Source: Bacillota bacterium
GTDB taxonomy: Bacteria; Bacillota_E; Symbiobacteriia; Symbiobacteriales; Symbiobacteriaceae
DNA length: 9,616 nt
NCBI GenBank assembly: GCA_003242675.1
Contig: QGVE01000110.1
Location: forward strand, 1 to 9,616
Direction: 5' to 3'
Position numbers and translations under genes: made by a program
Notes under the pieces: model-generated
Databases searched by the model: none
The model's input: only the letters and a program-made list of their open reading frames with translations
What the model was told of the DNA's origin: nothing
Part shown: positions 1 through 9,616 of the stretch, piece by piece
Layout of the letters: each line of letters starts with the position of its first letter
Position numbering within the stretch: the first letter of the stretch is position 1

Positions 1-2
1 GC

Positions 3-143
3 CATCCGCTGGGCTGCACGGGCGCCCGGCTCGTGGTCACGATCATGCACGAGGCCCGGCGGCGCAAGGCGAAGTACGGGCTCGTGACGATGTGCGTGGG
101 CGGGGGCATGGGCGCCGCTGGGGTGCTCGAGTTCGTGCACTAG
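3..143 (+). CDS. fadA: Acetyl-CoA acyltransferase (thiolase), C-terminal fragment
   Basis: Only the last 46 codons and the TAG stop lie in the window; the 5' part is cut by the window edge. The reading frame starting at base 3 gives HPLGCTGAR near the fragment's start and [11 protein letters not shown] near its end. In thiolases these two blocks carry the catalytic histidine (HPxGxTGAR) and the second catalytic cysteine (C-x-GGGMG). The enzyme cleaves 3-ketoacyl-CoA with CoA to acetyl-CoA and a shortened acyl-CoA, or runs the reverse condensation. The fragment cannot tell a beta-oxidation thiolase from a biosynthetic acetoacetyl-CoA thiolase. The symbol fadA rests on context: the next gene is a FadE of the type that follows FadA in Bacillus-like fadN-fadA-fadE clusters. 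The 663-base gap to fadE is much larger than in those operons, so co-transcription is uncertain. Confidence 0.9.
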
Positions 144-806: not shown

Positions 807-2576
807 ATGTCCGAGATCGCTTCCAACGTCGTCAAGGGAGGCTCTTTCCTGCTCACGCAGGCAAGCCCCGATCAGGTCTTCACCCCCGAGGACCTGACCG
901 AGGAGCAGCGGATGATCGGCCAGACGGCCCGCGAGTTCTCGGAGAAGGTGTTCACCCGGCTGAAGGAGATCGAAGAGGATAAGCCCACCCACTCCCGGCC
1001 GCTTCTGCGGGAGCTGGGCGAGCTGGGCCTGCTGGGGCTGGAGATCCCCGAGGAGTATGGCGGGATGGGGCTCGACAAGGTGACGGCTACCGTTGCGACG
1101 GAGGAGTACTCCCGGGCCGGATCCTTCGCCATCACCATCGGGGCGCACACCGGCATCGGCACGCTGCCCATCGTCTACTTCGGCACGCCCGAGCAGAAGG
1201 CCAAGTACCTGCCCAAGCTGGCGACGGGCGAGTGGGTCGCCGCGTATGCCCTGACGGAGCCGAACGCGGGCTCGGACGCGCTGGGCGCCCGCACCACCGC
1301 GCGGCTCTCCGAGGACGGCAAATACTGGATTCTGAACGGCACCAAGCAGTGGATCACCAACGCCGGCTTCGCGGACGTGTTCGTGGTCTACGCCAAGGTG
1401 GACGGCGATAAGTTCTCGGCCTTCATCGTCGAGCGCAACTTCCCCGGCGTCTCCGTCGGCCCGGAGGAGAAGAAGATGGGGCTGCACGCCTCCTCCACCT
1501 GCTCGCTCATCCTGGAGGACGCCAAGGTCCCCGTCGAGAACCTGCTCGGCGAGATCGGTAAGGGCCACGTAATCGCCTTCAACATCCTGAACATCGGCCG
1601 CTGGAAGCTGGGCGCCGGTGCGGTGGGCTCCAGCAAGATGGTCCTGAAGACCTGCATCGACTACGCCAAGACCCGCAAGCAGTTCGGCAAGCCGCTGGCC
1701 GAGTTCCGGGCGATTCAGCAGAAGCTGGCCGACATGGCCGTGCGCACCTACGTGACCGAGTCCATGGGCTACCGGACGGCGGGCCTGCTGGACAGCAGCC
1801 TGGCCGGCCTGGACAAGAACGCCGACTTCCGCGAGGTCGGCAAGCGGCTCGAGGAGTTCGCGATGGAGTGCTCCATCATGAAGGTCTTCGGCTCCGAGGC
1901 CTTCGACTTCGTCGCGGACGAGGGCGTCCAGATCCACGGCGGCTACGGCTTCATGGACGAGTACGCCGTCAGCATGGCCTATCGCGACAGCCGCATCAAC
2001 CGCATCTTCGAAGGCACCAACGAGATCAACCGGCTGCTGATTCCGGGCACGCTGGTGCGCCGGGCGATGAAGGGCCAGCTGCCGATCATGCAGGCGATGG
2101 CCAACCTCCAGGACGAGCTGATGAACCTCACGCCGTTCGAGGAGTCCGACGAGCCCCTCGCGCAGGAGCTGTTCATGATCGACCGGGCGCGGAAGATCTT
2201 CCTCATGCTGGCCGGCCTCGGCGTGCAGAAGTACCAGACGGCCCTGGAGAATGAGCAGGAGCTGCTGCTGGGCGTCGCCGACATCGCCATCGAGATCTAC
2301 GCCATGGAGTCGGCCGTCCTCCGGGCCCTGAAGGCCGTGAAGCGCGGCCAGCCCGGCCTGAAGGTCGAGATGGCGACGGTCTACTGCCAGGAGGCGTTCG
2401 AGCGCATCGCCACCATCGCCCGCACCCTGCTGCCGGCGGTGGAGGAGGACAGCGACACCCTGCGGACGCAGCTTTCCCTGCTCCGGCGGCTGAGCCGCTA
2501 CACGCCGGTGAGCACGGTCGCGCTGAAGCGGAAGATCGCCGAGCGGCTGCTGGAGAAGGGCGACTACGTCTGCTAA
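807..2576 (+). CDS. fadE: Acyl-CoA dehydrogenase (FadE type), 589 aa
   Basis: FAD-dependent acyl-CoA dehydrogenase for the first step of beta-oxidation: it makes trans-2-enoyl-CoA and passes electrons to electron transfer flavoprotein. The N-terminal helical domain covers about residues 20-145. The family signature YALTEPNAGSDALG is at 147-160, followed by the middle beta domain with KQWITNAG near 180. The C-terminal helical domain contains RKQFGKPLAEFRAIQ near 290-305. IFEGTNEINR places the likely catalytic base at Glu402. A further stretch of about 180 residues (roughly 410-589) makes the protein longer than the 380-residue mammalian-type enzymes and matches the Bacillus FadE/YusJ type, as does the N-terminal KGGSFLL. 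The start at 807 is chosen because GGGAGG lies 6 bases before it and the family N-terminus fits. A thiolase precedes it and a strong terminator follows, separating it from the flagellar leader. Confidence 0.95.
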   Translation: MSEIASNVVKGGSFLLTQASPDQVFTPEDLTEEQRMIGQTAREFSEKVFTRLKEIEEDKPTHSRPLLRELGELGLLGLEIPEEYGGMGLDKVTATVATEEYSRAGSFAITIGAHTGIGTLPIVYFGTPEQKAKYLPKLATGEWVAAYALTEPNAGSDALGARTTARLSEDGKYWILNGTKQWITNAGFADVFVVYAKVDGDKFSAFIVERNFPGVSVGPEEKKMGLHASSTCSLILEDAKVPVENLLGEIGKGHVIAFNILNIGRWKLGAGAVGSSKMVLKTCIDYAKTRKQFGKPLAEFRAIQQKLADMAVRTYVTESMGYRTAGLLDSSLAGLDKNADFREVGKRLEEFAMECSIMKVFGSEAFDFVADEGVQIHGGYGFMDEYAVSMAYRDSRINRIFEGTNEINRLLIPGTLVRRAMKGQLPIMQAMANLQDELMNLTPFEESDEPLAQELFMIDRARKIFLMLAGLGVQKYQTALENEQELLLGVADIAIEIYAMESAVLRALKAVKRGQPGLKVEMATVYCQEAFERIATIARTLLPAVEEDSDTLRTQLSLLRRLSRYTPVSTVALKRKIAERLLEKGDYVC

Positions 2577-2588
2577 GGGCATGCCGAG

Positions 2589-2606
2589 AGGCCCCCGGAG
2601 GGGCCT
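2589..2606 (+). repeat. Small hairpin after the fadE stop
   Basis: AGGCCCC (2589-2595) pairs with GGGGCCT (2600-2606) across a four-base loop. No T-run follows. It may stabilise the 3' end of the fadE mRNA or help slow polymerase before the stronger hairpin at 2630. Confidence 0.45.
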
Positions 2607-2629
2607 GCGGCGGAAGAGGGATGACAAAC

Positions 2630-2660
2630 GGGGAGCGGCAACGCCGCTCCCCTTTGTTTT
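2630..2660 (+). terminator. Rho-independent terminator of fadE
   Basis: GGGGAGCGGC (2630-2639) pairs perfectly with GCCGCTCCCC (2643-2652) around a three-base loop, followed by TTTGTTTT (2653-2660). AAA stands at 2626-2628 on the other side, so the hairpin might also stop leftward transcription weakly. It ends the beta-oxidation unit 54 bases after the fadE stop. Confidence 0.93.
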
Positions 2661-2722
2661 GGCTGGGTCCCGGGCCCATCGTTAGGAAAACCCGTGAAAA
2701 ATGTGTCCAAGATATGGAGGTA

Positions 2723-2743
2723 TTTCGCCCTCGATTAGCGAAA
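2723..2743. promoter_or_regulatory. Inverted repeat upstream of the possible flagellar promoter
   Basis: TTTCGC (2723-2728) and GCGAAA (2738-2743) are perfect reverse complements nine bases apart, about 10 bases before the proposed -35 element. The place would suit an operator for an activator or repressor. No regulator family is recognised, and a six-base arm is weak evidence. Confidence 0.25.
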
Positions 2744-2753
2744 GGATTAACCG

Positions 2754-2782
2754 TTCATGATTCAGGATATGTACGGTATATG
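2754..2782 (+). promoter_or_regulatory. Possible sigma-A-type promoter for the riboswitch-flagellar transcript
   Basis: TTCATG (2754-2759) and TATATG (2777-2782) are 17 bases apart, a canonical spacing with imperfect boxes (3/6 to TTGACA, 4/6 to TATAAT). It lies about 60 bases before the aptamer in a locally AT-rich stretch. No convincing flagellar sigma-D pattern (TAAA, about 15 bases, GCCGATAA) was found here. Some promoter must lie between the terminator at 2660 and the aptamer at 2840; this is the best candidate by eye. Confidence 0.35.
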
Positions 2783-2839
2783 CATATTACATTGGACCAG
2801 TGTACTAAAAAAGCAACAACCTGTTCCGTGCACTCTTCC

Positions 2840-2953
2840 CCCAGCGATAAAGGCACACCCGTCGAAAGGCGGGGTCGCAAAGCTACGGGGCTACAGGAAG
2901 CGGAGGTCCCGGACAGGGGCCCGCTTCCCATGCTCGCCGGGCTGCCGCTTGGG
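2840..2953 (+). ncRNA. Cyclic di-GMP-I (GEMM-I) riboswitch aptamer
   Basis: The order of conserved blocks matches GEMM-I: AAAGGCACACC (2849-2859), a hairpin capped by the GAAA tetraloop, GTCGCAAAGC (2874-2883), CGGGGCTA (2886-2893), and on the 3' side CATGCTCGCCGGGCTGCCG (2929-2947). Helices seen are: closing P1, CCCAGCG (2840-2846) with CGCT-T-GGG (2946-2953, one bulge); tetraloop hairpin, CCCGTC (2858-2863) with GGCGGG (2868-2873); variable arm, GGAAGCGG (2896-2903) with CCGCTTCC (2921-2928). By my alignment to the Vibrio Vc2 aptamer, the ligand-contact positions G20, A47 and C92 correspond to G2853, A2880 and C2945. A G at position 20 favours c-di-GMP over 3',3'-cGAMP, since cGAMP-type variants carry A there. 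It lies about 250 bases before fliM on the same strand, so the flagellar operon is the expected target. Confidence 0.93.
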
Positions 2954-2999
2954 ACGCTGTATGGCCCCGCGCTGCAGCGTCTGCTGGAGGGTGCTTTTT
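2953..2999 (+). terminator. Riboswitch expression platform: candidate terminator with competing hairpin
   Basis: Directly behind the aptamer two hairpins compete. One pairs GACGCTG (2953-2959) with CAGCGTC (2975-2981). The other pairs 2968-2978 with 2983-2993 around the loop GTCT; it has a perfect CAGC/GCTG tip and two G-G mismatches lower down, and is followed by C and TTTTT (2995-2999) like an intrinsic terminator. A third option pairs GCTGC inside the aptamer (2941-2945) with GCAGC (2974-2978), which would disrupt both ligand site and terminator. This is the arrangement expected of a transcription-attenuating riboswitch. Whether ligand turns the operon on or off cannot be settled by eye. 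Confidence 0.5.
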
Positions 3000-3018
3000 G
3001 CATGGGCAATTTTGGCGG

Positions 3019-3103
3019 TCCTTCCCAATGACGGAAGGTTTCTAGGGTTTGGTATAGGATTACCCTTGAAAGATATGGATACACCTTGGTTTTTTGGGAA
3101 GGA
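3019..3103 (+). promoter_or_regulatory. Leader segment with two mutually exclusive helices
   Basis: TCCTTCCCAA (3019-3028) is a perfect reverse complement of TTGGGAAGGA (3094-3103), a 10-base-pair helix that would enclose 65 bases. The same left arm can instead form a local hairpin with GGAAGG (CCTTCC 3020-3025, GGAAGG 3033-3038, loop of 7). Inside the large loop AGGGT (3044-3048) can pair with ACCCT (3062-3066). No known RNA family is recognised. The rest of the leader up to fliM (3104-3184) shows only the palindrome GTTCGCGAAC at 3158-3167. Confidence 0.4.
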
Positions 3104-3199
3104 ATTCTCTAACACAAAACGAATGATGCAAGAAAAGCTGCGCGACAGTTTCCTCTTGTTCGCGAACGGATCCCTCACGTCAACGGAGGGGTTGCACAT

Positions 3200-4126
3200 A
3201 TGGAGAACCCACTGAGCCAGGCGGAAATTGACGCCCTCGTAATGAGTACAGGCGCCAATATCCGTACCTACGACTTCCGCAGGCCGAGCAAGTTCAACAA
3301 AGACCTGATCCGGACCCTCGTGCTGGTGCACGAGAACCTGGCCCGGCTCCTGCAGTCTTACCTCTCCGCCGGGCTGCGCACCTGGGTCCAGATCAACGTG
3401 CGCTCCACCAACCAGTTCACCCTCTCGGAGTTCACCCAGCTCCTCCCCAATCCCACCATCGCGCTGTCCTTCCGCCTCAACCCGCTCCCCGGCATTTGCC
3501 TCCTGGAGATCAGTCACAATATTGCATTCGCCATTGTCGAGCGGGTTTTTGGGGGTCCCGGGAGCGATGTGCAGCCGCAGCGTGAGCTGACGGAGATCGA
3601 GCTGGGCATCATCCAGCGGGTCGTGAGGGACGCCTTCGGCCCGATGAAAGAGGCCTGGCGGAACGTGGCCGAGATCGAACCCACCCTCGAATCGGTGGAG
3701 ACCAACCCCGTCTTCATTCAGGTGGAAAACCCCACCGAGGTGGTGGCCGCGATCACCCTGGCGGTGGAGATCGGCGAACACCTGGGCCACATGACCTACG
3801 CGTTCCCGTACTCCACCGTGGAGCCCGTGCTTTCCCGCCTTTCGCCGCAGTCGTGGCTGGCTGAGTCCAGGCACAGGAGCCCGTCGGACGAGGAGAGCCT
3901 CCGGCGCGCCGTGCAGGAGGCCCCCCTCCCGCTGAAGGCTCAGCTTGGCAAGACCCGCATGCGGCTGGGCGAGTTTCTCGCGCTTCAGGTCGGCGACGTG
4001 ATCCGGCTGGACACCCGGATCGGCGACGAGTTGCCCGTCTTCGTCGGCAACAAGCTCGCCTTCTTGGCGAAGCCCGGCGTGGTGGGCGACCGGATGGCCG
4101 TGCAGATCGTCCGCCGGGTCACCTGA
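3200..4126 (+). CDS. fliM: Flagellar motor switch protein FliM, 308 aa
   Basis: FliM is the C-ring protein that binds phosphorylated CheY and, with FliG and FliN/FliY, sets the direction of flagellar rotation. The N-terminus carries LSQAEIDAL (residues 5-13), the CheY-P-binding peptide of the family. The middle domain (about 37-225) includes the FGGPG segment at 117-121, part of the GGxG region that contacts FliG. A C-terminal SPOA (FliN-like) domain covers about 238-305. At 308 residues it is slightly shorter than most FliM proteins, with the parts intact. The ATG at 3200 follows GGAGGGG (3185-3191) at 8 bases. It is the first gene behind the c-di-GMP riboswitch leader; in most Firmicute flagellar clusters fliM sits far downstream next to fliY, so its leading place is unusual. 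cheX follows after 20 bases. Confidence 0.97.
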   Translation: MENPLSQAEIDALVMSTGANIRTYDFRRPSKFNKDLIRTLVLVHENLARLLQSYLSAGLRTWVQINVRSTNQFTLSEFTQLLPNPTIALSFRLNPLPGICLLEISHNIAFAIVERVFGGPGSDVQPQRELTEIELGIIQRVVRDAFGPMKEAWRNVAEIEPTLESVETNPVFIQVENPTEVVAAITLAVEIGEHLGHMTYAFPYSTVEPVLSRLSPQSWLAESRHRSPSDEESLRRAVQEAPLPLKAQLGKTRMRLGEFLALQVGDVIRLDTRIGDELPVFVGNKLAFLAKPGVVGDRMAVQIVRRVT

Positions 4127-4146: not shown

Positions 4147-4659
4147 ATGAAGGTTGAATTCCTAAACCCTTTCATCTCCGCCGGCCTGAAGGTCCTGGCC
4201 TCGGAGGCGGGGCTGAAGAGCGTGGTCTCGGACAAGCCCCAGATGCGCAAGGCGATCGCCACGCTGCATGCCGTCAACGTGGTCATCGGCGTGATGGGCT
4301 CGGTCCAGGGCATCGTCGTCTACGGCATGGAGCTGCACGTGGCCAAGGGGATCATCCGGAACATGACCGGGCAGGACTTCCCGATCACGGATCCCATGGC
4401 CGAGTCGGCGCTGGGGGAGCTGGCGAACCTGATCACCGGCTACGCCTCCGGCACCCTGGAACAGGCCGGCTGGCCCAGCCGGATCTCGCCGCCGCGCATC
4501 GTCCGGGGCACCGGGGTGCGGCTGGCCAACACGGTGATCAACATGCTGACGGTACCGATCATCACAGAACTCGGTCAGATCACCATCTACCTGGCCCTGC
4601 GGGAGGTCGACCCCGCCGCCAGGACGATGGGTGGCGACACGGGAGGGATGGCAGGTTGA
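4147..4659 (+). CDS. cheX: Chemotaxis phosphatase CheX, 170 aa
   Basis: Matches the CheX family: MKVEFLNPFISAGLKVL at the N-terminus and ESALGELANLITGYA at about 86-100, where Glu91 and Asn94 form the E-x-x-N signature of CheC/CheX/FliY phosphatases. Members dephosphorylate CheY-P and so reset the motor signal. There is one such motif, as in CheX, whereas CheC and FliY carry two. The last 16 residues or so are Gly-rich and look disordered. Its place next to fliM suits a role at the CheY-P target; FliY, which joins a CheC-like phosphatase to a FliN domain, shows the same functional link. The start is set by the family N-terminus. The local GGAG is only two bases from the ATG, so translation probably depends on ribosomes arriving from fliM 20 bases upstream. 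The stop overlaps the next start. Confidence 0.93.
   Translation: MKVEFLNPFISAGLKVLASEAGLKSVVSDKPQMRKAIATLHAVNVVIGVMGSVQGIVVYGMELHVAKGIIRNMTGQDFPITDPMAESALGELANLITGYASGTLEQAGWPSRISPPRIVRGTGVRLANTVINMLTVPIITELGQITIYLALREVDPAARTMGGDTGGMAG
4641..4658 (+). promoter_or_regulatory. Ribosome binding site and TTG start of the rod gene, inside cheX
   Basis: GGGAGGG (4641-4647) lies 8 bases before TTG 4656-4658. The TTG overlaps the cheX stop in TTGA. The nearby ATG at 4648 is out of frame, so TTG is the only start that fits the site and the MIRGIEASRSGM N-terminus of the family. Confidence 0.8.
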
Positions 4660-5351
4660 TCCGGGGCATCGAAGCCTCCAGGTCCGGCATGGCGGTGGAG
4701 CAGCTGCGCATGGACGTGCTGGCGGACAACATCGCCAACGTGAACACCACCGGCTTCAAGCGCGCCGCCGCGACGTCGGTCGAGTTCGACCGGATGCTGC
4801 TTTACCGCATGGGAGACCCGACGGACCCCGAGCCCCAGCAGGTCGGCATCCTGGGCAACGGAAGCCGCGTGGATCAGGTGGTGGTCGATGAGCGCCAGGG
4901 CGACATCTACGAGACGGGCCGGGCCCTGGACCTGGCCATCGAGGGGCCGGGCTGGTTCCTGGTCCAGCGGCCCGACGGGAGCCTGTTCCGCACCCGGAAC
5001 GGCGCCTTCCACCAGATGGCGGACGGCTCCATCACCACCGCCGAAGGCTACCGGGTGCTGGTGGAGACCGCCGGTGGCCTGGTGCCGCTGGTGCTGCCCG
5101 GGGTGGAGCCCGCCTTCGCGCCGGACGGCACGGTCCTGGCAGACGGTCAGGCCGTCGGCCGGCTGGCGATTGATGGGGCGACGCCCGACACCCGCGTGCA
5201 CAGCCGCCACCTGGAGGCCTCCAACGTGGATCTGGCCAAGGAGATGTCGGACCTGATCGTGACCCTCCGGGCCTACCAGGTGAACCAGCGGGCCCTGCGG
5301 GCGCAGGACGAGACCCTGGCCCGGGCGGTCACGGAGATCGGCAAGGTCTGA
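4656..5351 (+). CDS. Flagellar rod protein of the FlgF/FlgG family, 231 aa
   Basis: Axial rod protein exported by the flagellar type III system. The N-terminal rod signature NIANVNTTGFKR is at residues 25-36, a middle beta-rich domain follows (LAIEGPGWFLVQ at about 93-104, FRTRNGAF near 111), and the family C-terminus is LEASNVDLAKEMSDLIVTLR at 186-205 followed by AYQVNQ. The terminal helices form the coiled-coil core of the rod. At 231 residues it is shorter than typical FlgG and nearer to FlgF or Bacillus FlhO/FlhP; I cannot separate these by eye, so no symbol is given. It starts with TTG inside the cheX stop, so the two genes are translationally coupled. It directly precedes flgB and flgC, which supply more rod subunits. 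Confidence 0.93.
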   Translation: MIRGIEASRSGMAVEQLRMDVLADNIANVNTTGFKRAAATSVEFDRMLLYRMGDPTDPEPQQVGILGNGSRVDQVVVDERQGDIYETGRALDLAIEGPGWFLVQRPDGSLFRTRNGAFHQMADGSITTAEGYRVLVETAGGLVPLVLPGVEPAFAPDGTVLADGQAVGRLAIDGATPDTRVHSRHLEASNVDLAKEMSDLIVTLRAYQVNQRALRAQDETLARAVTEIGKV

Positions 5352-5372: not shown

Positions 5373-5732
5373 ATGATCGGTCGTGACTTGACGGCCCGGA
5401 TCGTGGAGCAGGCCATCGACGCCGCCTCGCTCCGGCAGCGGGTCCTGGCCCACAACCTGGCCAACGCCATGACCCCCGGCTTCAAGCGGTCCCGGGTCGA
5501 TTTCGAGACCGAACTGGCGCGGGCCCTGGCCAATGGCACGAACCCCGACCAGGTGAGGCCGAGGATCGTCCAGGAGACGGACTCCATCGGCCGCCCGGAC
5601 GGCAACAACGTGGACGTGGAGGCGGAGTCGGTGAAGATGGCCCTCAACCAGATCTGGTATGCCGCCCTCACGCGCCAGATCTCCGACCACTTCCACCGGC
5701 TGCGCCTGGTGATCACGGATGGGAGGGGCTAA
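5373..5732 (+). CDS. flgB: Flagellar basal-body rod protein FlgB, 119 aa
   Basis: Proximal rod subunit close to the MS ring. The rod signature is HNLANAMTPGFKRSRVDF (27-44), and NNVDVEAE (78-85) is the conserved FlgB block before the C-terminal helix. The protein is slightly shorter than common FlgB (about 130 residues), mainly in the linker between the two helices. The ATG at 5373 follows GGGAGGG (5357-5363) at 9 bases, and the gap to the rod gene upstream is 21 bases. flgC follows after 4 bases, the normal flgB-flgC pair that opens many Firmicute flagellar operons; here it is the fourth gene. Confidence 0.96.
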   Translation: MIGRDLTARIVEQAIDAASLRQRVLAHNLANAMTPGFKRSRVDFETELARALANGTNPDQVRPRIVQETDSIGRPDGNNVDVEAESVKMALNQIWYAALTRQISDHFHRLRLVITDGRG

Positions 5733-5736
5733 GTAG

Positions 5737-6180
5737 ATGCGGCTGTTTCAGGCCATGGAAGCCAGCGCCTCGGCCCTGACCGCCGAGCGGCTCAGGATGG
5801 ACATCATCGCCAACAACCTGGCCAACTACCGCACCACCCGCACGCCCGAGGGCGGGCCCTACCGGCGCCGGTACGTCGTGGTGGAGGAGCGGCCCGGCAC
5901 CTTCGCCAGCGCCCTCGCCCGCGAAACCGAGCGCGGCGCCCAGCCCGGCCTCGGGGTCCGCGTGGCGCGGATCGCCGAGGATCCCAGTCCGTTCAAGGAG
6001 GTCTACGACCCCACGCATCCGGACGCCGACCCGGTCACCGGCATCGTGCGGCTGCCCAACGTGGACCTGCTCCAGGAGCTCACCGACCTCATCCTGGCGC
6101 AGCGCATGTACGATGCGAACCTCACCGCGTTCAACGCGGCCAAGTCCATGGCCATGCGGGCCCTGGAGATTGGGCGGTAG
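5737..6180 (+). CDS. flgC: Flagellar basal-body rod protein FlgC, 147 aa
   Basis: Proximal rod subunit of normal length. The N-terminal signature is NNLANYRTTRTPEGGPYRR (26-44), with Tyr-Arg where most homologues have a small residue and Asn before the TTRT. The hallmark FlgC block is YDPTHPDADPVTGIVRLPNV (90-109), and the C-terminal helix LTDLILAQRMYDANLTAFNA follows at about 115-134. The ATG at 5737 is preceded by GGGAGGGG (5721-5728), which lies within the end of flgB, so the site and spacing (8 bases) fix the start. Confidence 0.97.
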   Translation: MRLFQAMEASASALTAERLRMDIIANNLANYRTTRTPEGGPYRRRYVVVEERPGTFASALARETERGAQPGLGVRVARIAEDPSPFKEVYDPTHPDADPVTGIVRLPNVDLLQELTDLILAQRMYDANLTAFNAAKSMAMRALEIGR

Positions 6181-6202: not shown

Positions 6203-6502
6203 ATGGACATTCAACGCATCAACGCCTTGTTGTCCCTGGAACCGACCCTCACCCGGGAAAGCCGCGACGAGGTCAAGCAAGGCCCGTCCTTCAGCGAGGT
6301 GCTGGCCAGCGCCATCCGGCAGGTCGAGCAGGACCAGCGCCACGCCAACGAGATGGCCGTCCGGCTCGCCGCCGGAGAGGTGGAGGACATCGCCCAGGTG
6401 ATGATCGCTTCCGAGCGCGCGACCCTCAGCCTGAACCTGGCCATCCAGGTCCGGAACAAGGTCATCGAGGCCTACCAGGAGATCATGCGCATGACCTTCT
6501 AG
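6203..6502 (+). CDS. fliE: Flagellar hook-basal body protein FliE, 99 aa
   Basis: FliE joins the MS ring to the proximal rod and is an early export substrate. The protein is small and mostly helical, as expected. The family pattern is FSEVLASAIRQVEQDQRHAN (29-48), then a segment around VEDIAQVMIASERATLSLNL (60-79) and QVRNKVIEAYQEIMRM at the end. The ATG at 6203 follows AGGAG (6191-6195) at 7 bases. It lies 22 bases after flgC and 47 bases before fliF, in the conserved flgB-flgC-fliE-fliF order. Confidence 0.96.
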   Translation: MDIQRINALLSLEPTLTRESRDEVKQGPSFSEVLASAIRQVEQDQRHANEMAVRLAAGEVEDIAQVMIASERATLSLNLAIQVRNKVIEAYQEIMRMTF

Positions 6503-6536: not shown

Positions 6537-6552
6537 GGAGGGAGACCACTTG
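6537..6552 (+). promoter_or_regulatory. Ribosome binding site and TTG start of fliF
   Basis: GGAGGGAG (6537-6544) lies 5 bases before TTG 6550-6552. The next in-frame ATG (6583) lacks a comparable site at useful distance, so TTG is preferred. Confidence 0.75.
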
Positions 6553-8262
6553 GCTACTGCGGGCTCGGATGTATTAGGGCGCATGAAGCGATTCTGGGGC
6601 TCGCTGAGCCGGCCCATGCGCTGGCTTACCCTGGGGATTGCGGCCGCGCTGGTCGTCTCGCTGGCCGTGACCCTGTACCTGAACCGCCCCCGGTGGGAGG
6701 TCTTCTACAGGGCCACCGACCCCGGCGAGGTGACCGCCCTGGTGGAGCACCTCGAGGAGCTGAAGGTGCCGTACCGCATCACGGGCAGCGGGCTCGTCGT
6801 CGAGGTGCCCGAAAGCGAGCGCAGCGCGGCCAACCTGGCGAAGGCGCAGGCGGGCCTGCCCAGCTCCGGGCACGTGGGGCTCGAGATCTTCGACGAGCCC
6901 AAGTTCGGGGCGACCGAATTCGACCGGCAGGTGAACTACAAGCGGGCGATCGAGGGCGAGCTGTCCCGCTCCCTGATGCGCATCGCGGACATCGAATACG
7001 CCAAGGTGAACCTGAACCTGCCGGGCAAGTCCGTCTTCATCCGGGACCAGGAGAAGCCGTCGGCCGCCGTCCTCGTGCAGCTCAAGCCCGGCCGCACCCT
7101 CGACCCCGACAACGTCACGGCCATCATCCATTTCGTTGCGAGCTCCGTCGAGGGGCTGACGCCGGACCGGGTGACGGTGGTCGACAGCCAGGGCCGGGAG
7201 CTCAAGCCGGCCAGACAGGACGCCGAAGGGTTGGACGCAGAGGCCCTGGCCTTCCAGCGGCAGCGGGAGGAGCAGCTCACCCAGAAAATCCTCCAGGTGC
7301 TGGAGCCCATCTTCGGCCGGGGCAACGTGGCGGCCACCGTGACCGTCGAGCTGGAGCACCAGTCCTCCCGGACCGAAGAGCGGATCGTGGGTCAGGGGGT
7401 GCCGGTAGAGACCGTGACGCATCGATCGGGTTCGCAGACGCAGGGTACCAGCACGGAGCCGGCCCCTGCCGCCACGGCGGGCACCGGACAGGATCAGACC
7501 CCGGCCGTGCCCATCTATCAGGAGCCCGCGGTTTCCACGGAGTCCGGCGAGTCGTACGAAACCCGGACGGAGACCCGGTACGAGGTCGGCGAGCGGAACC
7601 AGGTCACCGTCTCGCCGGCGGGGGCGGTGAAGCGCATCAGCGCGGCGGTGACGATCAACCAGGACACGCTGACGCCGTCGGAGATCGATCTCATCCGCCA
7701 GCACGTGGCCAGCGCCACCGGGGCGCAGCCCGCGGACGTGACGGTGCTCGCCATGGCGTTCCGTCCGGTGATGCAGGCCGAGGCCGCGCCGCCCGCGCCG
7801 GCGGCCGGGGCGGGGCCGCGGCTGTTTGACGCCGCGACCCTGGCGATCGGTTTCGGCATCGCCTCGTTCCTGCTGATCCTGGCCGCGCTGCTCACGCGCC
7901 GCCGCCGTCCCGAGGAAGAGTACGCCCTGCCCGGCCAGCCGGCCGCAGGCACGGTGCTGGACGTGGCCCTGGGGCTGGACCGGCCGCTCCCGGCCGAAGA
8001 GGCCGCGGCCGCTGCCGAACCGGTAGCCGCCGCCGCTCCGCAGGAGGCGCCTGCGGAGGCGCCCGGGGAGCCCGCCCCGGCGGAGCAGACGGCGGCCGAG
8101 AAGTTCGAGGAGGTCATGAAGCGGCACAGGCCCCAGCGCAAGCCCCTGCAGCCGGAGGACTTCATGGAAGCCGACATCCTCGCCGATATCGACGTGCTCA
8201 TCGAGCAGGCCCCGGAGGCCTGCGCCGAGGTCATCCGGCAGTGGCTGAAGGGGGGGTTCTAG
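6550..8262 (+). CDS. fliF: Flagellar MS-ring protein FliF, 570 aa
   Basis: FliF oligomerises in the membrane to form the MS ring that houses the export gate and carries the FliG rotor ring. A first membrane helix lies at about 26-44. The YscJ/FliF ring-building domains follow (about 48-190, with LPGKSVFIRDQEKPSAAVLV at 157-176), then the FliF-specific domain (about 250-405) with a low-complexity Thr/Gly/Pro loop at about 290-320. A second membrane helix is at about 428-449, stopped by RRRRP. The cytoplasmic tail has an Ala/Pro/Glu-rich linker (about 482-515) and ends in LADIDVLIEQAPEACAEVIR plus QWLKGGF, the FliG-binding segment. The start is TTG with a good ribosome binding site. fliG begins 3 bases after its stop, fitting the need to make both partners together. 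Confidence 0.97.
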   Translation: MATAGSDVLGRMKRFWGSLSRPMRWLTLGIAAALVVSLAVTLYLNRPRWEVFYRATDPGEVTALVEHLEELKVPYRITGSGLVVEVPESERSAANLAKAQAGLPSSGHVGLEIFDEPKFGATEFDRQVNYKRAIEGELSRSLMRIADIEYAKVNLNLPGKSVFIRDQEKPSAAVLVQLKPGRTLDPDNVTAIIHFVASSVEGLTPDRVTVVDSQGRELKPARQDAEGLDAEALAFQRQREEQLTQKILQVLEPIFGRGNVAATVTVELEHQSSRTEERIVGQGVPVETVTHRSGSQTQGTSTEPAPAATAGTGQDQTPAVPIYQEPAVSTESGESYETRTETRYEVGERNQVTVSPAGAVKRISAAVTINQDTLTPSEIDLIRQHVASATGAQPADVTVLAMAFRPVMQAEAAPPAPAAGAGPRLFDAATLAIGFGIASFLLILAALLTRRRRPEEEYALPGQPAAGTVLDVALGLDRPLPAEEAAAAAEPVAAAAPQEAPAEAPGEPAPAEQTAAEKFEEVMKRHRPQRKPLQPEDFMEADILADIDVLIEQAPEACAEVIRQWLKGGF

Positions 8263-8265
8263 GGC

Positions 8266-9282
8266 TTGGCAGACCGTGACCAGAAGCTGACCGGCCGGCA
8301 GAAGGCGGCGATCTTCTGCATCAACATCGGCGTGGAGCGGGCCTCGAAGATTCTGAAGCACCTGCGCGACGACGAGATCGAGATGCTGACCGTCGAGATC
8401 GCGCAGGCCCGGCGGGTCACGCCGGAAGTCCTGGAACAGGTCTTCAACGAGTTCATCACCGTCGCCACGGCGGACAAGCACATCCGCTCGGGCGGCATCG
8501 ACTACGCCCGGGAGATGCTCGAGAAGGCCCTGGGGCAGGAGCGGGCCCGGGAGATCCTCACCCGCCTGACCTCCCACCTCCGGCGCCGGCCGTTCGACGC
8601 CGTGCGCCACACCGACCCGGTGCACCTGGCCTCCTTCCTCCAGAACGAGCATCCCCAGACCGTCGCCGTCATCATGGCGCACCTGGACCCCGACAAGGCC
8701 GCCCAGGTGCTGCTGGGCCTCCCGCCCGAGCGGCAGGCCGACATCATCCGCCGGGTGGCGACGCTCGATCGCACCTCGCCGGAGATGCTGCGGGAGGCCG
8801 AGAAGGTGCTGGAGCGCAAGGCGTCGGCCATCGTCAGCCAGGAGTCCACGGCGGCCGGCGGCATCAACTGGGCGGTCGACGTGCTCAACCGGGTCGACCG
8901 CACCACCGAGAAGACGATCATGGGCCTGCTCTCGGCGGACGACCCGGAGCTGGCCAGCGAGATCTCCCAGCGGATGTTCCTGTTCGACGACATCGTCAAC
9001 CTCGACGACCGCACGGTCCAGCGCATCCTGCGCGAGGTGGACATGAACCGGGATCTGCCGCTGGCGCTGAAGGCGGCGAAGGAAGAGGTCTGGCGGAAGA
9101 TCATGAACAACGTCTCCAAGCGCACCGCCGAGGCCCTGCGGGAGGCCGTGGAGTACATGGGGCCGGTGCGCATCCGGGACGTGGAGGAGGCCCAGGCCCG
9201 CATCGTCGCCTTGATCCGGCGGCTTGAGGAGGCCGGCGAGATCCAGATCGTCAGGGGTGGTAGCGCGGATGAGTACATCTAG
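8266..9282 (+). CDS. fliG: Flagellar motor switch protein FliG, 338 aa
   Basis: FliG is the rotor protein that meets the stator and generates torque; its N-terminus sits on the FliF tail and its middle part on FliM. Features in order: N-terminal domain (about 5-100) with LTGRQKAAIFCINIG; EHPQT at 128-132, the conserved middle-domain motif that contacts FliM; a Gly-Gly linker at 198-199; and the C-terminal torque helix RMFLFDDIVNLDDRTVQRIL (236-255), rich in conserved charges. The end, MGPVRIRDVEEAQARIV, is typical. Length is standard. The start is TTG, 9 bases behind a run of seven G, an unusual Shine-Dalgarno form that overlaps the end of fliF. This and the 3-base gap suggest coupling to fliF. 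The 3' end overlaps fliH by 14 bases. Confidence 0.97.
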   Translation: MADRDQKLTGRQKAAIFCINIGVERASKILKHLRDDEIEMLTVEIAQARRVTPEVLEQVFNEFITVATADKHIRSGGIDYAREMLEKALGQERAREILTRLTSHLRRRPFDAVRHTDPVHLASFLQNEHPQTVAVIMAHLDPDKAAQVLLGLPPERQADIIRRVATLDRTSPEMLREAEKVLERKASAIVSQESTAAGGINWAVDVLNRVDRTTEKTIMGLLSADDPELASEISQRMFLFDDIVNLDDRTVQRILREVDMNRDLPLALKAAKEEVWRKIMNNVSKRTAEALREAVEYMGPVRIRDVEEAQARIVALIRRLEEAGEIQIVRGGSADEYI

Positions 9283-9616
9283 TCGATTCGGCAAGCTCCC
9301 ACCCGGCGTGGAGGTCCGGGCCCCGGAGTGGCCGCGGCTCACCCCGCCCCCGCCGCCGCCCGAGCCCCCCGCCCCGCCCAGGCCCGCGAAGCCGGCACCG
9401 CCGAAGCCGGAGGAGACCGAGGCCCAGGCCAGGGCCGCGGAGGCCCTGCTGGACGAGGCCCGGATGGAGGCGTCCCGCATCCTGCAGTCCGCGGCTGAGG
9501 AGGCCGAGCGGGCGCAGGCGGCCGCCCGGGAGGAGGGCTTCGCCAGGGGCCGTGAGGAAGGGCTGGCGGCCGGCAGGGCCGAGGTCGAGGCCCTGCGGCG
9601 GGAGGCCGAGCTGGCC
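9269..9616 (+). CDS. fliH: Flagellar export ATPase regulator FliH, N-terminal fragment (116 codons)
   Basis: The frame opens at ATG 9269, 14 bases inside the end of fliG, and stays open to the window edge, so the C-terminus is missing. FliH binds and regulates the export ATPase FliI and links it to the C-ring. Residues 20-50 are strongly proline-rich (a run of six prolines near 26). Then comes an Ala/Glu/Arg-rich coiled-coil region (about 51-90) and EEGFARGREEGLAAGRAE (about 88-105), the Gly-spaced GxxxG-like helix typical of FliH and related V-ATPase E-type stators. AGGGGTGG (9252-9259) lies 9 bases before the ATG. The assignment rests on this signature and the place behind fliG, where fliH is expected; the low-complexity N-terminus itself carries little information. 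Confidence 0.9.
   Translation, partial: MSTSSRFGKLPPGVEVRAPEWPRLTPPPPPPEPPAPPRPAKPAPPKPEETEAQARAAEALLDEARMEASRILQSAAEEAERAQAAAREEGFARGREEGLAAGRAEVEALRREAELA

Follow-up and report, generated by a model that had tools for sequence, protein, structure and literature searches.

A predicted class I c-di-GMP riboswitch ahead of a flagellar operon that begins with fliM and a cheX-like gene in a Symbiobacteriaceae genome

Introduction

In Clostridioides difficile, the class I riboswitch Cd1 for cyclic di-GMP (c-di-GMP) lies before the flgB operon, and binding of c-di-GMP terminates transcription, as stated in excerpts of PMC5386303 and PMC11477304. Residues that are highly conserved in this class include G20, C22, A23, A25, C44, G45, A47-A49 and C92, according to an excerpt of PMC3764141. 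We analysed a 9,616-base stretch of DNA (contig QGVE01000110.1 of assembly GCA_003242675.1, hereafter the window), for which a preliminary description had proposed a class I c-di-GMP aptamer at 2840-2953, and had cited the C. difficile flgB riboswitch as a precedent; the precedent is real and is Cd1. The window carries a complete aptamer with a canonical ligand pocket, located behind a terminator and before flagellar genes. Since Cd1 is known, a GEMM-I switch before a flagellar operon is not new as an arrangement: such control has already been described, and this locus adds another member. On balance, we believe that the element is a working c-di-GMP riboswitch of the flagellar operon, with OFF as its likeliest sign.

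Results

Identification of the aptamer

2840-2953, + strand: c-di-GMP-I (GEMM-I) aptamer with closing helix P1 (Rfam, our own covariance model, fold)

The Rfam search returned RF03167 (c-di-GMP-I-GGC) at 2843-2950 on the + strand, with 66.3 bits against a cut-off of 59 (E 2.8e-14). This is the only match listed at the gathering threshold across the window, which agrees with the view of the preliminary description that the element is the only clear regulatory RNA before the flagellar genes. A second, overlapping match from the same clan scores lower and lies above its own cut-off; its name and score are not displayed, and it is probably RF01051. The covariance check suggested beforehand thus gave a score above the cut-off, but with RF03167 as the top family instead of the expected RF01051. 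Matches to malK-III and mir-199 in a permissive Rfam search of 2600-3300 (E 0.45 and 0.5) were discarded as chance.

A covariance model of our own, R1, was built from 20 of 31 RF03167 aptamers extracted from other genomes, the window itself being excluded. At E 5 or better it found one place in the window, again 2843-2950 (70.9 bits, E 5.8e-16). The 31 comparison aptamers are the loci of a Fimbriimonadia genome and the best matches in its phylum, a non-random sample. The 20 members of R1 were picked by hand with no written rule, and the 11 omitted include all five that have no GAAA loop in P2, so R1 leans towards GAAA loops like that of the window. In the fold, helix P1 (2840-2846/2946-2953) lengthens the covariance match to 2840-2953. 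Because the Rfam match and the independent model agree, the riboswitch observation is confirmed, and P1 accounts for the ends originally proposed: judged by sequence comparison, 2840-2953 is almost certainly a c-di-GMP-I aptamer.

Architecture, ligand pocket and P2 loop

2852-2878, + strand: end of J1/2 and helix P2, with the GAAA tetraloop at 2864-2867 (Rfam and R1 alignments, fold)
2879-2881, + strand: J2/3, A47-A48-A49, ligand pocket (alignment; residue roles from an excerpt of PMC3764141)
2881-2943, + strand: helix P3, which includes the tetraloop receptor and carries a long additional hairpin at 2896-2928 (fold, Rfam alignment)
2945, + strand: C92, ligand pocket (alignment to the UGCCG stretch of the model, numbering mapped by hand)

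The motifs quoted in the preliminary description are all found at their places: GGCACACC at 2852-2859, the GAAA loop at 2864-2867, GTCGCAAAGC at 2874-2883, CGGGGCTA at 2886-2893 and GCCGGGCTGCCG at 2936-2947, together with P1. Its statement that all GEMM-I hallmarks are present holds for the motifs, the GAAA loop and P1, but not for C24 and U43, which depart from the consensus. The pocket residues are canonical in the Rfam and R1 alignments, with numbers mapped by hand: G20 is G2852, A47 is A2879 and C92 is C2945. C44 is present as C2876, and the fold of 2840-2953 contains the GAAA tetraloop, P1, P2 and P3 with its receptor. The partner of C44, G83, was read by eye as G2936 and is unpaired in this fold. 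The bulge of P1 is a U, which we take to lie one step from the A95 bulge of Vc2, the numbering being derived from the Vc2 sequence. Since the pocket letters equal the canonical G20, A47 and C92, c-di-GMP is the predicted ligand.

C24 (2856) and U43 (2875), in Vc2 numbering, fall within GGCACACC and GTCGC. Neither position appears in the conserved-residue list excerpted from PMC3764141. Position 24 is A in all 31 other aptamers, and position 43 is A in 26 of them and G in five. RNAfold pairs A23 with U43 and C24 with G42 in the window, which the usual AAA/GAC loop is unable to do. Pattern scans of viral contigs yielded 14 loci with C24+U43, 20 with A24+U43, 21 with C24+A43 and 35 with A24+A43. 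Of the 35 A24+A43 loci, 14 that looked real by eye were scanned, and Rfam confirmed a c-di-GMP-I aptamer in every one. It found none in the 14 C24+U43 loci, all of which were scanned, nor in three A24+U43 loci (from 20) or one C24+A43 locus (from 21). The remaining 17 A24+U43, 20 C24+A43 and 21 A24+A43 loci were judged by eye alone. Among these sequences, the C24+U43 combination seems rare. The two changes, seen in a single sequence, may be neutral drift at positions that tolerate change, or the mark of a remodelled loop. A more specific proposal, which we regard as speculative and decidedly doubtful, would be a GEMM-I sub-variant in which an ACA/GUC loop replaces AAA/GAC and forms two Watson-Crick pairs while leaving C44 free for its P3 contact; such a loop would tune affinity or heat stability, and would be used in the Symbiobacterium lineage to put the motor switch protein and a CheY-P phosphatase first under c-di-GMP.

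On the viral side, 14 IMG/VR contigs carry c-di-GMP-I aptamers (L090, L092, L094, L095, L096, L098, L100, L103, L105, L107, L108, L110, L115 and L122). A Pistol ribozyme is also present in L110, the pemK RNA motif in L094, L100, L105, L108 and L122, and a dinG RNA match in each of L090 and L095.

Expression platform and proposed mechanism

2953-2981, + strand: candidate antiterminator part, helix A (2953-2961/2973-2981), whose foot overlaps P1 (folds)
2968-2999, + strand: candidate terminator, made up of the hairpin 2968-2993 (-13.1 kcal/mol), the best one ahead of a U run, and a CUUUUU tail
2982-2991, + strand: 3' strand of a long-range helix, pairing with the 5' side of P1 at 2838-2846 (folds)

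Helix A takes the 5' arm of the candidate terminator and the long-range helix takes its 3' arm, while P1 and the long-range helix are mutually exclusive. In free folding of transcripts ending at 2993-2999, the long-range helix and helix A dominate and the terminator probability is printed as 0.0. Constrained folding used shortened, non-overlapping helix definitions; imposing the aptamer with its full P1 at the same ends and 37 °C raised the terminator to 0.27-0.30. At end 3008 and 37 °C, the terminator rises from 0.0002 in free folding to 0.12 when the inner P1 pairs alone are imposed and to 0.26 when P1 is complete.

In the mechanism that we favour, the RNA would be transcribed from a promoter within 2653-2840, and c-di-GMP would keep helix P1 closed. 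Closed P1 would block 2838-2846 from pairing with 2982-2991; in the absence of the long-range helix the terminator at 2968-2999 could compete, and high c-di-GMP would lead to less flagellar transcription. The OFF sign is proposed because P1 competes with the long-range helix that breaks up this terminator, and the modelled folds make OFF the somewhat more probable sign.

Several observations weigh against this mechanism. When the constraint is limited to the inner pairs of P1, the terminator reaches just 0.04-0.07 (ends 2993-2999, 37 °C). At 60 °C it amounts to 0.04-0.05 under full P1 and to about 0.01 under inner P1, with helix A still ahead, and at end 3003 and 37 °C it falls to 0.01 even with full P1. 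Helix A outweighs the terminator at all the ends tested. The terminator is weak: of 400 shuffled versions of 2951-3060, 54 give a hairpin as good. Shuffling also attains the energy of the long-range duplex in 312 of 5000 cases, and that of the 2951-3000 fold in 234 of 1000. The platform is predicted from the folding of this one sequence. No promoter reached the scan threshold in 2500-3300, so that we can only infer where the transcript starts, and a looser scan gave 8 of 12 matches at best. By shuffling, the platform elements are thus near chance level; the modelled folding points in the OFF direction, with an effect of uncertain size.

Other arrangements were tried and rejected. A short hairpin at 2976-2995, which a pattern scan had picked out, lies about 10 kcal/mol above the free ensemble for transcripts ending at 2996 or 3000, and the hairpin 2968-2993 was preferred to it. 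An anti-aptamer helix, 2886-2896/2957-2969, seemed promising by shuffling but costs 5.7-8.0 kcal/mol relative to the free ensemble at the tested ends 2982-3000 and 4.2-5.6 kcal/mol at ends 3010-3060; 96 of 5000 shuffles reach its duplex. The Shine-Dalgarno sequence of fliM is paired in all three folds computed (free, aptamer imposed, long-range helix imposed). Pairing that does not depend on the aptamer argues against translational control through this site, which we therefore regard as unsupported.

The fliM leader also contains a perfect 10-base complement, 3019-3028/3094-3103 (UCCUUCCCAA / UUGGGAAGGA). It competes with a hairpin that forms locally near 3020-3038 (CCUUCC/GGAAGG) and is possibly a second switch element.

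Alternative ligands and mechanisms

The name of the best-scoring Rfam model raises the question of the ligand, since an aptamer of a 'GGC' variant could sense something other than c-di-GMP, as could one responding to 3',3'-cGAMP. From the family name and the printed consensus, we infer that 'GGC' denotes G20-G47-C92. The RF03167 consensus has a G (CGCGAAG) where the window, although scoring best with this model and above its cut-off, carries an A (CGCAAAG), A2879, at the position read as 47. All 31 other RF03167 matches examined likewise have A47, and when three of these loci were compared with all of Rfam, RF01051 scored best for two and RF03167 for one. The RF03167 model therefore attracts canonical members. 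A match to it does not imply, and in practice should not be taken as, an altered ligand pocket, and c-di-GMP is the expected ligand. As for 3',3'-cGAMP, the defining mark of the GEMM-I variant that senses it is an A at position 20, and the window has G2852 there. The ability to bind cGAMP is tied to a G20A mutant in an excerpt of PMC7288161. We consider a ligand other than c-di-GMP highly improbable.

The same helices could also be read with the opposite sign. If the long-range helix 2838-2846/2982-2991, which stands just before UGCUUUUU, were itself the terminator stem, P1 stabilised by the ligand would break it and allow read-through, giving an ON switch. In free folds ending at 2993-3003 this helix does dominate, no other stem lies between it and the U run, and P1 excludes it; but the loop that it closes has 135 bases, whereas intrinsic terminators have short hairpins, the U run begins only after a gap of three bases (UGC), and 312 of 5000 shuffles attain its duplex energy. 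The known flagellar GEMM-I switch, moreover, is OFF (excerpts of PMC5386303 and PMC11477304), and we hold an ON switch to be unlikely. It is also conceivable that the aptamer binds c-di-GMP and barely affects the operon, fliM expression being largely freed from it by another promoter within 3000-3199 or by the weakness of the terminator. The 246-base leader between the aptamer and fliM, with a TTGAAA hexamer at 3066 inside it, would accommodate this, and Bc1 of Bacillus thuringiensis is a GEMM-I element whose downstream expression is hardly changed by c-di-GMP, according to an excerpt of PMC11218506. No promoter was found at threshold in 3000-3199, however, and the best-scoring partner of TTGAAA is TTTTTT, which leaves such an idle aptamer improbable in our judgement.

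RF03167 matches at E 1e-6 or better occur in 126 of 291 genomes in the phylum of the Fimbriimonadia genome, with at most 10 per genome. One locus of the RF03167 set (L029) has two c-di-GMP-I aptamers in tandem on one strand, at 1500-1593 and 1933-2021, within 530 bases.

Gene neighbourhood

2630-2652, + strand: intrinsic terminator behind fadE (10-pair stem with 9 G-C pairs, then TTTGTTTTGG)
3185-3191, + strand: Shine-Dalgarno sequence of fliM, GGAGGGG (sequence)
3200-4126, + strand: fliM (TIGR01397, 278.5 bits, cut-off 219.6; PF02154)
4147-4659, + strand: gene for a CheX-like CheY-P phosphatase (PF13690, 50.5 bits, cut-off 27; solved CheX chains, best E 3e-13)
4656-5351, + strand: flgF/flgG-like rod gene (TIGR03506, 153.6 bits, cut-off 70.25)
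5373-5732, + strand: flgB (TIGR01396, 97.1 bits, cut-off 59.05)
5737-6180, + strand: flgC (TIGR01395, 149.7 bits, cut-off 102.1)
6203-6502, + strand: fliE (TIGR00205, 93.6 bits, cut-off 30)
6550-8262, + strand: fliF (TIGR00206, 211.9 bits, cut-off 129.75)
8266-9282, + strand: fliG (TIGR00207, 392.7 bits, cut-off 226.7)
9224-9616, + strand: probable fliH, truncated where the window stops and with an uncertain start codon (assigned solely from its place behind fliG; Pfam gave no match)

Upstream of the riboswitch lies fadE (732-2576; NF058590, 934 bits), and the strong terminator at 2630-2652 isolates the riboswitch leader from it. Four open reading frames of at least 70 amino acids overlap the leader (2621-3031 and 2757-3215 on the + strand, 2755-3084 and 2891-3874 on the - strand). 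Pfam matched none of them at E 0.1, so the first gene that can be recognised past the aptamer is fliM. The Pfam and TIGRFAM assignments and the solved CheX chains bear out the earlier view that the flagellar genes behind the aptamer start with fliM and cheX, and the aptamer very probably governs the operon that these two genes open.

E-x-x-N is the catalytic motif of CheX and CheC. Its E and N are aligned in both solved CheX chains shown, which, with PF13690 above its cut-off, places the cheX-like product in the CheX/CheC family. This product scores 90.4 bits with NF041094, the NCBIfam model for CheX of Thermotogales, far under the cut-off of 280. For the rod gene at 4656-5351, the separate flgF and flgG models both remained under their cut-offs.

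The relatives of FliM include a protein from a Symbiobacterium sp. metagenome-assembled genome at 84% identity and others at up to 93%, which points to the Symbiobacterium lineage. A scan of genome contigs for relatives found the Fimbriimonadia locus only, with 32% FliM identity. In the plasmid search, all 61 FliM records were below 60% identity; viral contigs gave no FliM match, and the aptamer region had no match among plasmids or phages.

At the upstream end, window positions 1-143 probably carry a thiolase gene's 3' end, which with fadE would form a fatty-acid oxidation cluster. Diverged direct repeats lie in the gap before fadE (254-702): the segment 302-441 (140 bases) has a second copy at 535-674 that is 93% identical, and there are three copies of a 49-base unit.

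Discussion

A literature search (titles and abstract openings, mostly of open-access papers) returned no account of such an element in the Symbiobacterium lineage, which is weak evidence of absence. If the riboswitch works as we propose, this would be a second Bacillota lineage, after C. difficile, in which flagellar transcription responds directly to c-di-GMP, and the first genes of the operon placed under it would be those of the rotor switch and a CheY-P phosphatase. The preliminary description went further and supposed that the messenger could set both motor number and the signalling state, which is conjectural. A working switch would suggest that RNA-level control of flagella by c-di-GMP extends beyond the one worked-out case found.

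The closest described systems frame this proposal. In the solved structure of Vc2 from Vibrio cholerae, as excerpted from PMC3764141 and PMC4744006, G20, A47, C92, C44, the GAAA tetraloop and the receptor positions are as in the window, which differs by C24 and U43 in the internal loop of P2. Compared by published description (excerpts as cited above), the locus resembles Cd1 in that early flagellar genes follow it and that control is probably transcriptional. The window operon starts with fliM and cheX, however, whereas that of Cd1 starts with flgB, and the OFF behaviour shown for Cd1 is suggested by folding in the window.
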